From: Pelagibacterium sp.
GTDB lineage: Bacteria > Pseudomonadota > Alphaproteobacteria > Rhizobiales > Devosiaceae
Length of the DNA stretch: 46,728 nucleotides
NCBI GenBank assembly: GCA_002723255.1
Contig: PBNW01000074.1
Coordinates: 1-46,728 of the forward strand
Direction of reading: 5' to 3'
Shown: piece after piece, positions 15,235-40,146 of the stretch
Layout of the letters: every line of letters starts with the position of its first letter
How positions within the stretch are numbered: position 1 is the stretch's first letter
Program-made: the position numbers and the translations under genes
Notes under the pieces: generated by a model
What the model saw: only the letters and a program-made list of their open reading frames with translations
Told to the model about the DNA's origin: nothing
The model's database searches: none

Positions 15235-16598
15235 CCTCCGCCGACGCCGCCCGGCAGCAAAAGGGAACGCGCCCGTTTTCACGGTTTGAGTGGATGGTGT
15301 CCGGCCGCTACCTGCGGGCACGCCGCAGCGATGCGTTCATTTCCGTCATCGCCGCCCTGACCATGATCGGCATCGCCATCGGCGTTGCAACCCTGATCGT
15401 TGTCATGAGCGTTATGAACGGGTTCCGTGACGAGCTTCTGTCCAAGATCCTTGGGCTGAATGGCCACTTTACCGCCTTTCCCATCGAAGAAACGTTCGAC
15501 GATTACGAGGCGGTCCGTGACCGTCTCGAAGGAGTCGATGGCGTGGTTTCCGCAGTGGCATTTGTCGAGGGCCAGGCGCTGGTCACCGGTACATATAATT
15601 CCACGGGCGCCAATGTGCGCGGCATGACACTCGCCGATATCGAGAAGCTCCCCTTGCTCTATTCGAGCGCCCTGGCCGGCGGCTGGGAGGATTGGGACGA
15701 TCTTGAGGGCGTAGCCATCGGCAGCCGCATGGCGTCCCAGCTCGGTGTGACGGTGGGCGATACCATAACCATCGTTACCCCCAATGGCCCGCGCACCCCG
15801 CTCGGCTCAACCCCGCAGATCCGATCCTATCCCGTGAATGTCGTTTTCGATGTTGGCATGGTGGAATTCGATTCTCTGTTCATTTTCATGCCCATCCGGG
15901 CAGCTCAGAACTATTTCCGTCTCTATGAGGACCGGTTGCGCGAAGGTATGGAAGAGCCCGACATCATGGCCAGTGACGAGGAAATCGACGCGGCCTATGA
16001 GCGGATTTACACGGCGACGGCGGTCGAGGTCTTCCTTAACGATCCGGACGCCACCTGGGACAGACAACTCGACCTCGAACAGGCCGCTGGTCGGCCGATG
16101 GTTTTCACCGATTGGCAGCGGCGCAACGCCACCTTCTTTTCGGCCTTGCAGGTCGAGCGCGTGGTGATGTTCACAATTCTTTCGATGATCGTTTTGGTCG
16201 CGGCCTTCAATATCATCTCCAGCCTCGTGATGCTGGTGAAGGACAAGGGCGCTGATATCGCGGTGTTGCGCACCATGGGTGCCACACGTTCCTCGATCAT
16301 GCGCATTTTCTGCATAACCGGAACTGCCATTGGCTTTATCGGGACGTTTGCCGGCTTCCTGCTTGGCTTGGTCCTGGCCCTCAACGCCGAAACCATCAGG
16401 GCTTGGGTGTCCAGTGTCATTGGCGTGGCGCTGTTTCCGCCCGAGGTCTTTATGCTCTCTCAACTCCCCTCGCGGGTTGATGCGCTTGAAGTGACTGTAG
16501 TGCTCGTCATGGCACTGGGGCTGTCTTTCCTCGCTACGCTTTATCCCGCCTGGCGCGCGGCCCAGTACGATCCCGTGGAGGCGCTACGCTATGAGTGA
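15231..16598 (+). CDS. lolC: Lipoprotein-releasing ABC transporter permease (LolC/LolE family, probably LolF type)
   Basis: This 455-residue inner-membrane permease extracts lipoproteins from the inner membrane for transfer to LolA. It has an N-terminal span (about residues 35-57), a large periplasmic domain and three C-terminal spans with the FtsX/MacB core. Only one permease gene accompanies lolD, so it probably works as a homodimer like LolF-type proteins. The TTG start overlaps the proS stop (TTGA). It is preferred over the downstream ATG at 15294, which would remove the conserved pre-TM segment [18 protein letters not shown]. The end overlaps lolD by 8 nt. Confidence 0.92.
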
Positions 16599-17277
16599 CG
16601 TGCTTCTCGAACTCAAGGATGTCCGCCAGACCTATGGTGATGGGGAAGGGGCCGTCCACGTCCTCAACGGCGCCGATCTGACCGTCAATCGCGGTGAGAT
16701 CGTCGCGCTCATCGCTCCATCGGGCGCGGGCAAGTCGACCTTGCTCCACATCTGCGGCCTGCTCGAGCGTCCGACAGCTGGTGACGTCGATATTGACGGC
16801 GAACGGACGGCCAAACTTGCCGACCGTCAGCGCACGCTGCTCCGCCGTCATCTCATTGGTTATGTGTATCAGTTCCACCACCTGCTTCCCGAATTCAGCG
16901 CGCTCGAAAACGTCACAATGCCGCAATTGATTGCCGGTGAGAGCCAACGCGAGGGTGATCAGCGATCGAAGGCGCTGCTTGACGCCATGGGAATCGGTCA
17001 TCGCACCACGCATCGGCCGGCCGAACTTTCGGGCGGGGAGCAACAGCGTGTCGCCATCGCCCGTGCCGCCGCCAACCGGCCAAGCCTCATTCTCGCCGAC
17101 GAACCTACAGGCAATCTCGACCCTGTGACATCCGACACCGTGTTCTCGGCGCTCGCCGAACTGATCCGCCAGCAAAATGCCGGCTGCATCATTGCCACAC
17201 ACAATCACGATCTCGCCCGTAAGGCCGACCGCATCGTGACTATCGTCGAAGGCCGCATCCAGCCCACGACTTTGTAA
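16591..17277 (+). CDS. lolD: Lipoprotein-releasing ABC transporter ATP-binding protein
   Basis: This 228-residue ATPase powers the lipoprotein export permease encoded just upstream. Walker A is APSGAGKST (42-50), the signature is LSGGEQ (145-150) and Walker B is LILADE (165-170), followed by the H-loop in IIATHNHD. Overlap with the permease gene indicates coupled translation. No clear terminator follows in the next 100 bp. Confidence 0.95.
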
Positions 17278-17573: not shown

Positions 17574-17616
17574 TGGACAAGAACAAATCAAGAATATATA
17601 AGAACAAAACATAAAC
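17574..17616 (+). promoter_or_regulatory. Promoter with two near-consensus LexA (SOS) boxes
   Basis: A -35-like TGGACA (17574-17579) and -10-like TATAAG (17597-17602) are 17 bp apart. Between them lies GAAC-N7-GAAT (17581-17595), and just after the -10 lies GAAC-N7-AAAC (17602-17616). Each matches 7 of 8 positions of the alphaproteobacterial LexA consensus (GAAC-N7-GAAC in this orientation), and both share GAACAAA with a box in front of lexA in this window. One box in the spacer and one at the start site is the same arrangement as at lexA. Binding is inferred. Confidence 0.6.
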
Positions 17617-17636
17617 ACTGTGCAACGGAGGTTTCC

Positions 17637-17735
17637 ATGCTCGATTTCGTCAAGGACTTCATGGCTCTGGTTTCGCTTACAGCCTTTGGTGGCGTTACGC
17701 TGCTCTATCTCGATATGATGCCCTATCTCGTCTGA
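17637..17735 (+). CDS. 32-residue single-span membrane peptide, SOS-promoted (SidA-like candidate)
   Basis: A 33-codon frame opens at ATG 17637 with a strong GGAGGT Shine-Dalgarno 4 nt upstream. It ends in TGA 87 bp before dnaE. The peptide has a short amphipathic start (MLDFVKDF), one hydrophobic span (about residues 9-25) and a short tail ending PYLV. The size, membrane nature, LexA-type promoter and position beside dnaE recall Caulobacter SidA, a 29-residue SOS-induced inner-membrane inhibitor of FtsW. I recall sidA also lying near dnaE, but cannot check this. Sequence homology to SidA is not shown. It may also be a leader peptide for dnaE. Confidence 0.65.
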   Translation: MLDFVKDFMALVSLTAFGGVTLLYLDMMPYLV

Positions 17736-17822: not shown

Positions 17823-20800
17823 ATGTCCGGTCCCGGTTTCGTCCATCTTCACGTCCATTCGGCCTTCTCGCTGCTTGAGGGAGCATTGCCGCTTGGCACG
17901 ATACTGGATTTGGCCAAGGCTGACGGACAGCCCGCCATCGGTATTGCCGACACCAACAATCTGTTCGGCGCGCTGGAGTTTTCCGAGAAGGCATCGGGCA
18001 AGGGTATCCAGCCGATCATTGGTTGCGAATTGGCGCTCGATTTTGGCGCCGACACCGAAAAGCCATCAGACCGTGTCAATCTGGGCAAAGGGTCCGTAGT
18101 TCTGATCGCCGCCGATGCAGGAGGATTTTCCATCCTCTCCGAGCTCGTTTCGAGAGCATATCAGGAGGGGGTCGACGGGCGTACCGCCATCCACATTGAC
18201 TGGCTGGTCGATAACGCGCTGGGCCTGCTCTGTCTTACAGGTGGGCCCGAAGGAGCCATCGACCCCTATCTCGCCGCAGGGCTTGACGTTCAGGCCGAGG
18301 CGCGGCTGGCGGTTCTTCATCGGGTGTTCGGCGATCGGCTCTATGTCGAAATCCAGCGCCATGACCGCGCGCTGGAAAATGCCGTCGAGCCGCGCCTGAT
18401 CGAACTGGCATATACGCTCGGCCTGCCGCTCGTTGCGACCAACGAGCCTTATTATCCCAAGCCGGATGACTACGATTCCCACGATGCGCTGCTGGCCATC
18501 GCCGCGGGCTCCGTTGTCGCGCAGACCGAGCGCCGGCGCCTGTCGGACCAGCATTATTTCAAGTCGCGCGAGGAAATGATCGCGTTGTTTTCCGATCTGC
18601 CCGAAGCGTTGGAAAACACGGTCGAGATTGCACAACGCTGCAGCTATCGCCCACGCACTCACGATCCCATTCTGCCCAAATTCGCTGCTGCGGACGGAGT
18701 GGGGGAAGAGGAGGCGGTCGCCGCCGAAGGAGAGGAACTGGCGCGCCAGGCGCGTGAGGGACTCAAGATGCGTTTGGCCGATTATGGCCACGCCCCCGAG
18801 CGAACCACCCAGGAATATGAGGAGCGGTTGGAATTCGAGATCAAGGTGATCCGGGACATGAAGTTTCCCGGCTATTTCCTTATCGTTGCCGACTTTATTA
18901 AATGGGCCAAAGCCCACAATATTCCCGTCGGCCCGGGCCGTGGGTCGGGTGCGGGCTCACTGGTGGCCTATGCGCTCACCATCACGGACCTCGATCCGCT
19001 GCGCTACAATCTGCTGTTCGAGCGCTTCCTCAATCCCGAACGCGTGTCGATGCCCGACTTTGACATCGACTTCTGCCAGGAACGCCGTGAAGAGGTCATT
19101 CGCTACGTTCAGGACAAATACGGCTACGAGCAGGTCGCCCAGATCATCACCTTCGGAACGCTCCAGCCACGCGCCGCGCTGCGCGACGTCGGCCGCGTGC
19201 TTCAGATGCCCTACGACCAGGTCGACCGCATCTGCAAGCTGGTCCCCAACAATCCAGCCAACCCCGTGACCTTGGCGCAAGCGATAAACGACGAGCCGCG
19301 CCTGCAGATGATGCGCGACGAGGATGAGACTGTCGCCGAACTCCTGCGCATCGCCGGAAAGCTCGAGGGCCTGTTCCGCCACGCCTCGACCCACGCCGCA
19401 GGCATCGTGATTGGTGACCGCCCGCTGCAAAAGCTGCTCCCGCTCTACCGTGATCCGCGCTCGGATATGCCGGTTACCCAGTACAATCTGAAATGGGTCG
19501 AACCGGCAGGTCTTGTGAAGTTCGACTTCCTCGGCCTCAAGACACTGACCACGATCCGCTATGCCGTTGAAATGGTAAAGGAAACTGGCGTCGACCTCGA
19601 TATCGATGCCATCCCGCTCGAGGATGCGCCCACTTATAAGCTCTACGCCGATGGCGATACCTACGGCATCTTCCAGTTTGAAAGTCCGGGCATGCGGCGT
19701 TCTCTGGTCGAGCTCAAGCCTGACCGCATCGAAGATCTGATCGCGATGAATGCGCTCTACCGGCCCGGTCCGATGGACAATATCCCGAGCTTCATTCATC
19801 GCAAGCACGGGCACGAGGAGGTGGAATACCCCCACGAAACACTCGCCGCGGTACTCGATGAGACTTACGGCATCATTGTCTATCAGGAACAGGTGATGCA
19901 GATCGCCCAGCTCTTGGCTGGCTACTCCTTGGGTGAGGCCGACGTGCTGCGCCGCGCGATGGGCAAGAAGATCAAGGCCGAAATGGACAAGCAGCGCGTC
20001 CGCTTCCAGGAAGGCGCAATCCGCAACGGCATCAAGAAGGGCCAGGCCGACACCATCTTCGACCTGCTCGCCAAGTTCGCCAATTACGGCTTCAACAAGA
20101 GCCATGCCGCAGCGTACGCCTGGGTATCCTACCAGACGGCCTATCTGAAGACCCATTACCCGGAACAATTCTACGCGGCGTCCATGACGCTCGACATGGC
20201 CCAGACAGACAAGCTGTCCGATTTCCGCCGTGAGGCTCAGAAAAAAGGTATTGAAGTCGTCCCGCCTTGCATCAACCGGTCCGAGGTCAATTTCTCGGTG
20301 CGCGATGGCCGCATTTTTTATTCGCTGTGCGCCGTTAAGGGTGTGGGCCGGAACGTTGCCGAACATATTGTCGAGATTCGTGGTGACCGCCCGTTCGGCG
20401 ATCTCGCCGATTTCGCCTCCCGCATCGATCCGAAGGTCATCAATAAGCGGACCTTGGAAACGCTCATAAATGCCGGCGCTTTCGACATGCTCAACAAGCG
20501 CCGCGAGCAACTGGTCGAAGTCATTGATACCATAGTGAACACCGCCCAGCGCGAAACCAGCGGTCGCGCAGATGGCATCGTGGATATGTTTGCGTCCAGC
20601 CAGCCCCAGGCCATTACGCCCCCCGAACATGTCGCGCCCTGGAGCCTCACCGAACGTCTGGCGCGCGAACACGCTGCCATAGGCTTCTATCTCTCCGCCC
20701 ATCCTCTCGATGACTACACCGAGCTGTTCGAGAAACTCCGCGTTCAGCAATGGTCAAGCTTCGAGCGCGCCGCGAGAAATGGCGCCGTTGCCGGGCGTCT

Positions 20801-21266
20801 GGCCGGAACGCTGATCTCGCGCCAAGACCGCCGCACCCGCAAGGGTTCGACGATGGCGATCATGATGTTTTCCGATCCCAGCGGGTCATTCGAGTGCATA
20901 GCGTTTTCCGAGCAGATCAGTGATTTCGGCCGTTGGCTCGAACCTGGCAAGTCGATAGTGCTGGAGGTCGGCGCCGATTCCCGGCCCGACGGTGTTCGGC
21001 TCCGACTCATCAATTGCGAGCCGATAGATGCCTCGGTCGAAAAGCTCGGTCGCCGCATGACGATCTTTGCCGGCAACGAGCGATGCCTTGGGCCGATCAA
21101 ATCCCAGCTCCAGCCGGGTGGGGAGGGGGTTGTCAGCCTCGTGCTGGTCCGCGACGGGGGTGAACGCGAGTACGAAATTGAGCTGCCCGGTCAGTTTCGC
21201 CTCACGCCACAACTGGCCGGCGGGCTCAAAGCCGTTACCGGTGTGGTTGATGTGCGCTTGAACTAG
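17823..21266 (+). CDS. dnaE: DNA polymerase III subunit alpha
   Basis: This is the 1147-residue replicative polymerase catalytic subunit. The N-terminal PHP domain starts with FVHLHVHSAFSLLEGAL. The palm catalytic acids lie in PDFDIDFCQERREEV near residue 410. The finger, helix-hairpin-helix and OB-fold (about residues 980-1060) regions follow in normal order. The start is placed at ATG 17823 because the family begins a few residues before the PHP HLHVH motif. A GTG at 17745 would add 26 residues that look non-coding. It belongs to the DnaE1 group, not the mutagenic ImuC/DnaE2 group, judging by length and intact PHP region. Confidence 0.96.
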   Translation: MSGPGFVHLHVHSAFSLLEGALPLGTILDLAKADGQPAIGIADTNNLFGALEFSEKASGKGIQPIIGCELALDFGADTEKPSDRVNLGKGSVVLIAADAGGFSILSELVSRAYQEGVDGRTAIHIDWLVDNALGLLCLTGGPEGAIDPYLAAGLDVQAEARLAVLHRVFGDRLYVEIQRHDRALENAVEPRLIELAYTLGLPLVATNEPYYPKPDDYDSHDALLAIAAGSVVAQTERRRLSDQHYFKSREEMIALFSDLPEALENTVEIAQRCSYRPRTHDPILPKFAAADGVGEEEAVAAEGEELARQAREGLKMRLADYGHAPERTTQEYEERLEFEIKVIRDMKFPGYFLIVADFIKWAKAHNIPVGPGRGSGAGSLVAYALTITDLDPLRYNLLFERFLNPERVSMPDFDIDFCQERREEVIRYVQDKYGYEQVAQIITFGTLQPRAALRDVGRVLQMPYDQVDRICKLVPNNPANPVTLAQAINDEPRLQMMRDEDETVAELLRIAGKLEGLFRHASTHAAGIVIGDRPLQKLLPLYRDPRSDMPVTQYNLKWVEPAGLVKFDFLGLKTLTTIRYAVEMVKETGVDLDIDAIPLEDAPTYKLYADGDTYGIFQFESPGMRRSLVELKPDRIEDLIAMNALYRPGPMDNIPSFIHRKHGHEEVEYPHETLAAVLDETYGIIVYQEQVMQIAQLLAGYSLGEADVLRRAMGKKIKAEMDKQRVRFQEGAIRNGIKKGQADTIFDLLAKFANYGFNKSHAAAYAWVSYQTAYLKTHYPEQFYAASMTLDMAQTDKLSDFRREAQKKGIEVVPPCINRSEVNFSVRDGRIFYSLCAVKGVGRNVAEHIVEIRGDRPFGDLADFASRIDPKVINKRTLETLINAGAFDMLNKRREQLVEVIDTIVNTAQRETSGRADGIVDMFASSQPQAITPPEHVAPWSLTERLAREHAAIGFYLSAHPLDDYTELFEKLRVQQWSSFERAARNGAVAGRLAGTLISRQDRRTRKGSTMAIMMFSDPSGSFECIAFSEQISDFGRWLEPGKSIVLEVGADSRPDGVRLRLINCEPIDASVEKLGRRMTIFAGNERCLGPIKSQLQPGGEGVVSLVLVRDGGEREYEIELPGQFRLTPQLAGGLKAVTGVVDVRLN

Positions 21267-39310: not shown

Positions 39311-40018
39311 CTAGTAGCGCCGTAGCAATCCCACCAGTCGTCCCTGAACCTTGACGCGGTCAGGACCGAAAATCCGGGTTTCGTAAGCCGGGTTGGCCGC
39401 CTCCAGCGCCACGGCGTTTCCCTTCTTGCGCAGGCGTTTAAGGGTTGCTTCCTCGTCATCGACCAGCGCGACAACGATCTCACCATTTCCGGCAGCATCC
39501 TGCTTGCGAATCAAGACCGTATCGCCGTCGAAAATCCCGGCATCGATCATCGAATCCCCCCGCACTTCGAGCGCGAAATGTTCTCCAGAACCCAGCATTT
39601 CGGGTGGAACCGCAATGGAATGAGAGTGAGTCTGGATCGCCTCGATCGGCACACCCGCCGCAATGCGACCCATCACCGGAATGGCCACCGATCCGCCATT
39701 GTCCTGGCGGGGCGCCACGGTTTTGGCTGGCACCTTGCCCAGTGTACCCTCGATCACCGAAGGTTCAAACCGCGCCTTGCGCCCGCCCAGCGACGGATTC
39801 ATCGAATCCGGCAGCTTAACGACTTCGAGCGCTCGAGCCCGGTTGGGCAATCGGCGGATAAAGCCACGCTCTTCCAGCGCCGTGATGAGCCGGTGGATGC
39901 CCGACTTCGATTTCAGATCCAGCGCTTCCTTCATTTCGTCGAACGAGGGCGGAATGCCGCTCTCTTTCATCCGCTCATGGATGAACATCAGAAGTTCGTG
40001 CTGTTTACGCGTCAACAT
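39311..40018 (-). CDS. lexA: LexA repressor
   Basis: This 235-residue SOS repressor self-cleaves when stimulated by RecA filaments. The winged helix-turn-helix lies in residues 1-65 ([20 protein letters not shown]). The autocleavage bond is Ala121-Gly122 in [12 protein letters not shown], and the Ser-Lys dyad is Ser156 (RGDSMIDAG) and Lys194 (ATLKRL). Two LexA boxes lie directly upstream, so it autoregulates. It ends 35 bp from the end of convergent comEC. Confidence 0.97.
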
Positions 40019-40046
40019 TGGCGGATCCCTCGGCGGCGTCGAATCG

Positions 40047-40091
40047 GAACAAATATTGAACTTTTATACATGTTCCGTAAATGTTCCGCAA
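40047..40091 (-). promoter_or_regulatory. lexA promoter with two consensus SOS boxes
   Basis: On the minus strand TTGCGG (plus 40086-40091) and TATAAA (plus 40063-40068) are separated by 17 bp. Two perfect GTTC-N7-GTTC boxes are present: plus 40072-40086 lies in the spacer and plus 40047-40061 covers the expected start site. This is the alphaproteobacterial LexA motif and gives an internal consensus for this genome. Confidence 0.85.
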
Positions 40092-40146
40092 GCGTCCACT
40101 GTAATCACGGCTCTAGCAGCGCCGCTCGATTGCCGGCCGGAGCGTT

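Follow-up and report, generated by a model that had tools for sequence, protein, structure and literature searches.

The DNA between lolD and dnaE of Pelagibacterium sp. holds a 32-codon open reading frame behind two putative LexA boxes. Is this frame a gene, and does it encode a counterpart of SidA, the division inhibitor of Caulobacter crescentus reportedly described by Modell et al. in 2011? A preliminary description of the window (the whole stretch of 46,728 nucleotides analysed here, contig PBNW01000074.1 of assembly GCA_002723255.1) had proposed a SidA-like inhibitor on the grounds of size, membrane span, SOS control, and a dnaE neighbour. Our best reading, which we hold to be quite probable, is that the frame is a sidA ortholog and that its product is an SOS-induced membrane peptide that would halt division at FtsW, a function carried over from Caulobacter.

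The Gene, Its Promoter, and Its Neighbours

The features of the locus are collected in Table 1. The short gene with a Shine-Dalgarno sequence that had been described between lolD and dnaE was recovered, and both neighbours were identified by profile. The best NCBIfam match of the upstream neighbour is to LolD, with a score (263.3 bits) below the cut-off of that family (307.75). The presumed repressor gene lexA is the single place in the genome above the TIGR00498 cut-off, a second, weak match reaching 39.9 bits. The peptide matched no family of Pfam or NCBIfam at E ≤ 10, and it is predicted to fold as one helix over residues 2-31 (AlphaFold2, single-sequence, mean pLDDT 94.3).

Table 1: Features of the probable sidA locus and the presumed repressor gene in the window.
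Feature	Position	Strand	Basis
lolD, upstream neighbour	16591..17277	+	PF00005 3.5e-32; top NCBIfam TIGR02211 LolD 1.6e-78
Peptide promoter, -35 element (TGGACA)	17574..17579	+	sequence reading
Putative LexA box 1, GAACAAATCAAGAAT on the + strand, 7/8 core bases, within the 17-bp spacer	17581..17595	-	GTTCN7GTTC, one mismatch
Peptide promoter, -10 element (TATAAG) after a 17-bp spacer	17597..17602	+	sequence reading
Putative LexA box 2, GAACAAAACATAAAC on the + strand, 7/8 core bases, over the expected start site	17602..17616	-	GTTCN7GTTC, one mismatch
Shine-Dalgarno GGAGG, ATG 5 nt downstream	17627..17631	+	sequence reading
Probable sidA ortholog, gene of a 32-aa predicted single-helix membrane peptide	17637..17735 (with stop)	+	frame MLDFVKDFMALVSLTAFGGVTLLYLDMMPYLV, conservation, synteny, profile match
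dnaE (DNA polymerase III alpha), downstream neighbour	17823..21266	+	NF004226 1445.1 bits, above cut-off
lexA, presumed repressor	39311..40018	-	TIGR00498 183.3 bits, above cut-off

The two boxes claimed for this promoter, one in the spacer and one at the start site, were located with GTTCN7GTTC, the LexA box motif stated for Caulobacter in excerpts of PMC12700426. The first base of box 2 is also the last base of the -10 element. This TATAAG is kept in 12/12 loci of the genus and the -35 TGGACA in eight of the twelve, the remainder having TTTACA, TCGACA, TAGACG, or TAGACA. A generic sigma-70 scan called no promoter upstream of the peptide; its rule requires T as the last base of the -10 element, which is G here.

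Single boxes with one mismatch are near chance in the window (47 found, 35.5 expected, and 4 of 100 shuffles reaching 47). The peptide boxes are the only same-orientation pair spaced 15-28 bp apart in the window, and 60 random sequences of the same dinucleotide make-up held a mean of 0.25 such pairs and a maximum of 2. The case for the boxes depends on conservation rather than on the window alone. As for the earlier statement that their layout is exactly that of the lexA promoter, the arrangement is indeed alike, since the latter (TTGCGG-17-TATAAA) also has one box in the spacer and one past the -10 element, but the second lexA box is reversed and the lexA boxes are the better matches. The lexA promoter (40019-40097) thus carries two perfect, oppositely oriented boxes around TATAAA, as expected for autoregulation.

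Conservation in the Genus and Family

When 61 genomes, including that of the window, were searched with the peptide, 34 gave a match at E ≤ 10, among them 12/12 genomes of the genus. The homologous loci L001-L029 (28 from the family of the window and one, L025, from another family) have dnaE downstream in 28/29 (the exception, within 1.5 kb, being L021) and lolD upstream in 26/29 (the exceptions being L010, L016, and L018). A thirtieth candidate, L030, was dropped as a homologue: it is part of a frame of 648 aa, and both lolD and dnaE are absent from its surroundings. A LexA box with at most one mismatch was found upstream of the peptide in all 29 loci and a perfect one in 19; no box of the window (L001) or of its closest relatives, L002-L004, exceeds 7/8 core bases.

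Translation of the frame and purifying selection on it are indicated by a pN/pS of 0.235 within the genus (66 pairs, first 31 codons) and by the 52/17/120 split of the non-majority bases of the 12 genus loci over codon positions 1/2/3. The +2 frame is likewise open in 12/12 genus loci, but it varies least at the third codon position, a pattern that speaks against it as the coding frame. The preliminary description had set a refuting condition, that close relatives fail to conserve the frame or the LexA half-sites; both are kept.

A Related Peptide Upstream of dnaE in Caulobacter

Four Caulobacter genomes were found through an S-layer gene, and the region upstream of their dnaE was read. Directly before dnaE, all four have a 29-aa frame with a Shine-Dalgarno sequence and two boxes, GAACN7GAAT at -48 and GAACN7GAAA at -30; the dnaE neighbour named in the preliminary description is thus borne out. 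In the genus of one of the four, Caulobacter sp. Root343, dnaE was matched in 41/41 genomes searched. The family frame is present in 31/31 Caulobacter loci read (30 of those 41 plus one further Caulobacter locus), and in 30/30 of those with at least 250 bp of upstream sequence. Most of these frames are 29 aa long, with boxes near -50 and -30; one locus, L231, is without a box, and its match begins 150 bp from the contig end. Some Caulobacter loci (L204-L207, L215-L217, and L221-L223) have a third, perfect box, GAACATCTTGTGAAC, located about 16 bp ahead of box 1.

A nucleoside hydrolase gene lies upstream in 22/31 Caulobacter loci, for example next to the frame in L205 (PF01156, IU_nuc_hydro, 6.9e-78), and lolD lies beyond it in 14 of those 22. 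The hydrolase thus sits between lolD and sidA in 14/31 loci (e.g., L208, L209, and L216); in L207 lolD is nearer, and among the first four loci this one alone also has lolD within reach. These neighbours fit the published locus tags: sidA is CCNA_02004 (PMC10769358), CCNA_02005 is an inosine-uridine preferring nucleoside hydrolase (PMC3667746), and dnaE is CC1926 (PMC1839093; the CB15 and NA1000 numbers belong to different series). According to PMC4211646, SidA has 29 aa, resides in the inner membrane, and interacts with FtsW. Since size, control, and neighbours agree, the Caulobacter 29-aa peptide is almost certainly SidA, identified here by its size, LexA control, place, and locus tags rather than from a printed sequence.

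Direct BLASTP of the window peptide against the Caulobacter peptide gave no match. Profile-profile alignment (hhalign) related the two families with an E-value of 1.6e-5, a probability of 79, and 33% identity over 18 ungapped columns from residue 1. A model built from the window family only ranked 13/15 Caulobacter peptides above all 3000 pooled shuffles. In the reverse direction, which is a weak test with a narrow Caulobacter-only model, 0/28 window-family peptides beat all 5600 pooled shuffles; 16 of them ranked within the top 1.5%, and ranks for the remaining 12 ranged from 2.7% to 57%. The two ends are bridged by intermediate peptides, for example MQALARDVAALVALALFASSLMLWINILSQVG (L045) and MARWVRDTLSLASCGGFVWVMWQAALLTSAA (L120), each of which scores on one of the two models. 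Orthology of the window gene with Caulobacter sidA is well supported, although the BLASTP result and the weak reverse test count against it. The SidA-like reading of the preliminary description, which claimed no sequence tie, is supported by the conservation of frame and boxes, by the Caulobacter peptide before dnaE, and by the fit of the locus tags, and relatedness at the profile level goes beyond it.

The window gene and SidA are alike in their place directly before dnaE, in two LexA boxes at similar spacing, in a very small product (29-32 aa) with one predicted membrane helix, and in the pattern [KR][DE]xxAL.S...F, besides the profile match to the Caulobacter sequence identified as above. 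They differ in low pairwise identity (6 of the first 18 positions) and in their C-terminal halves (YLDMMPYLV versus an 11-residue stretch), and activity has been demonstrated for the Caulobacter peptide only.

Breadth across Alphaproteobacteria

The survey covered 288 distinct loci with dnaE, after removal of duplicates (the window, which recurred as L090; 11 order loci from its family; and the class locus L102, a copy of the accepted L064). Fifty-one of them (within L001-L087) had been chosen for a matching peptide and were all accepted, and frequency can be read from the other 237 only. Searches were ranked by likeness to the dnaE of the window, and the order and class loci comprise the top 30 of each plus 80 picked by hand, so that they are no random sample. 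An earlier class-wide search with the first profile had returned mostly noise, with dnaE at 4/29 of the loci L059-L087 (L059, L064, L068, and L077). The iterated family model was counted on its own training set of ORFs, which makes its E-values optimistic; the reverse strand served as a guard.

At E < 0.01 the model accepted an ORF on the sense strand in 158/288 loci, with 141 distinct frames, and, when the same gaps were scanned on the reverse strand, in 1/288 (L269). Among the loci not selected by peptide, 107/237 were accepted: all 31 of Caulobacter, 66/98 of the order, and 10/108 of the class. When at least 250 bp of upstream sequence was required, the figures were 66/97 for the order and 10/106 for the class, leaving 31/97 and 96/106 without a family ORF. 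By a hand count, the accepted members come from 21 families in the window's order and, besides Caulobacter, 7 families outside it. The spread is patchy; the loci from families f30, f31, and f33 (4, 3, and 2) are all without the peptide by the model.

LexA boxes accompany the accepted frames. A box with at most one mismatch lies within 110 bp upstream in 141/158 accepted loci versus 7.1% of base-shuffled sequences, a perfect box in 111/158 versus 0.4%, and two boxes 15-28 bp apart in 58/158 versus 0.06%; among the non-accepted loci, a perfect box between -500 and -40 was present in 13/127. A strict scan for a perfect box, a Shine-Dalgarno sequence, and a hydrophobic short frame matched 122/285 loci on the sense strand and 0/284 on the reverse. 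These matches comprise 112 of the 158 accepted loci and 10 of the 127 non-accepted ones.

The ten extra loci are L113, L139, L179 (family f93), L093, L094, L173, L284, L285, L294, and L331; their peptides, for example MSKRNYLKNGFEFVVFASVLATLVFWSEIVHSFTG (L139), are perhaps divergent forms of SidA or replacements of it. The single reverse-strand match, L269 (genome G128), has an E-value of 1e-8, and two perfect LexA boxes 21 bp apart were seen on the same strand, about 170-190 bp ahead of its longest accepted frame. With these boxes, it may be a real inverted copy of sidA. On the window-family model this inverted frame scores as high as the Caulobacter peptides, which counts against the ortholog reading.

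SidA is treated as a C. crescentus inhibitor in excerpts of a review (PMC9578287) and of a recent paper (PMC13396833). Our search of the open-licence literature found no description of SidA outside Caulobacter, though an earlier remark on its conservation is possible, and the checkpoint may be far more widespread than work on Caulobacter alone shows.

Does the LexA Site Serve the Peptide or dnaE?

Alternatively, the boxes could regulate dnaE, and the small frame could be a leader or an upstream ORF on its mRNA. PMC3323433 records dnaE of Caulobacter as LexA-controlled and gives the same for multi-chromosome alphaproteobacteria from comparative work. The peptide also stands close to dnaE (87 bp from stop to gene in the window, and in some Caulobacter about 31 bp), and a scan of the intervening sequence in the window detected no terminator-like site, which makes co-transcription likely. 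The spacing across loci argues the other way. In 120 loci, the distance of the outermost perfect box to the peptide motif has a standard deviation of 15 bp and that to dnaE one of 104 bp, and the peptide stop-to-dnaE distance varies from 21 to 591 bp; the regulatory sites are tied to the peptide and not to dnaE. The conservation moreover covers residues, beyond a mere open frame, and the Caulobacter gene at the same place is sidA, which has a function of its own. A mere dnaE leader is thus an improbable account of the frame.

Because the box keeps a steady distance to the peptide and a loose one to dnaE across this variable gap, we conclude that the LexA site is the sidA promoter. The LexA control that was reported for dnaE may really be that of sidA. 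At the same time, dnaE may well be carried on the transcript of the peptide, given the short gap and the lack of a terminator-like site within it.

Proposed Mechanism and Its Meaning

By orthology with Caulobacter sidA we infer the following course of events. LexA would bind one box between the -35 and -10 elements and the second over the start site, and the promoter would be shut. Upon DNA damage, active RecA would lead LexA to cleave itself, and a burst of the peptide would be induced. With its short, charged N-terminus (K6 D7), the peptide would enter the inner membrane as a single helix and would contact FtsW, and the late divisome (the FtsW/FtsI/FtsN septal complex) would be blocked, such that cell division would be withheld until repair is complete. 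The proposed target was found in 12/12 relatives searched, exactly one FtsW in each; a search of the window's own 84%-complete assembly with the FtsW model gave no match, which we read as an assembly gap. Functional data outside Caulobacter were not found in the open-licence literature searched.

TisB is a small, SOS-induced, membrane-depolarising peptide. A product of the TisB/DinQ sort in place of a divisome inhibitor would agree with the size, the single span, and the LexA control of the window gene. Such a peptide is nevertheless unlikely here, since the gene is homologous and syntenic with sidA, the product of which acts on FtsW in Caulobacter, and is conserved at one chromosomal place. 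That a chance frame stands behind chance boxes, to which the near-chance number of single one-mismatch boxes in the window might point, is already refuted by conservation, with the peptide in every genus genome searched, the low pN/pS, and a strict scan that matched on the sense strand only, and its probability is negligible.

We lean, with little more than even confidence, towards a wider picture in which SidA is an old alphaproteobacterial SOS checkpoint of the lolD-sidA-dnaE neighbourhood that many lineages have lost or relocated. In this picture, the LexA regulation assigned to dnaE in alphaproteobacteria would belong to the sidA promoter, and a shared transcript may couple the arrest of division to a renewed supply of replicative polymerase, in polar-growing Hyphomicrobiales as well. 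SOS division inhibitors are mostly lineage-specific according to passages of PMC4211646 and PMC9578287. The SidA peptide is short enough to be missed by gene calling. A class-wide SidA family, if true, would provide a ready candidate for the damage-induced halt of division in Hyphomicrobiales and other alphaproteobacteria, would offer the distinct frames accepted by the model as natural variants for mapping the FtsW contact, and would lead to a reinterpretation of the known LexA site before dnaE. Because the prediction concerns a single small gene and implies a clear-cut phenotype, it is directly testable.

Comparison with Other Division Inhibitors

DidA of Caulobacter is likewise a small protein with a single span that is induced upon DNA damage and inhibits division (PMC4211646). 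Unlike the window peptide, it has 71 aa, is SOS-independent and driven by DriD, binds FtsN, and is unconnected to the lolD-dnaE locus. YneA of Bacillus, SosA of Staphylococcus, and ChiZ of Mycobacterium are alike in being damage-induced membrane inhibitors of late division. In PMC13396833, these three are predicted to touch TM7 of FtsW, and SidA is predicted on the opposite face of TM7.
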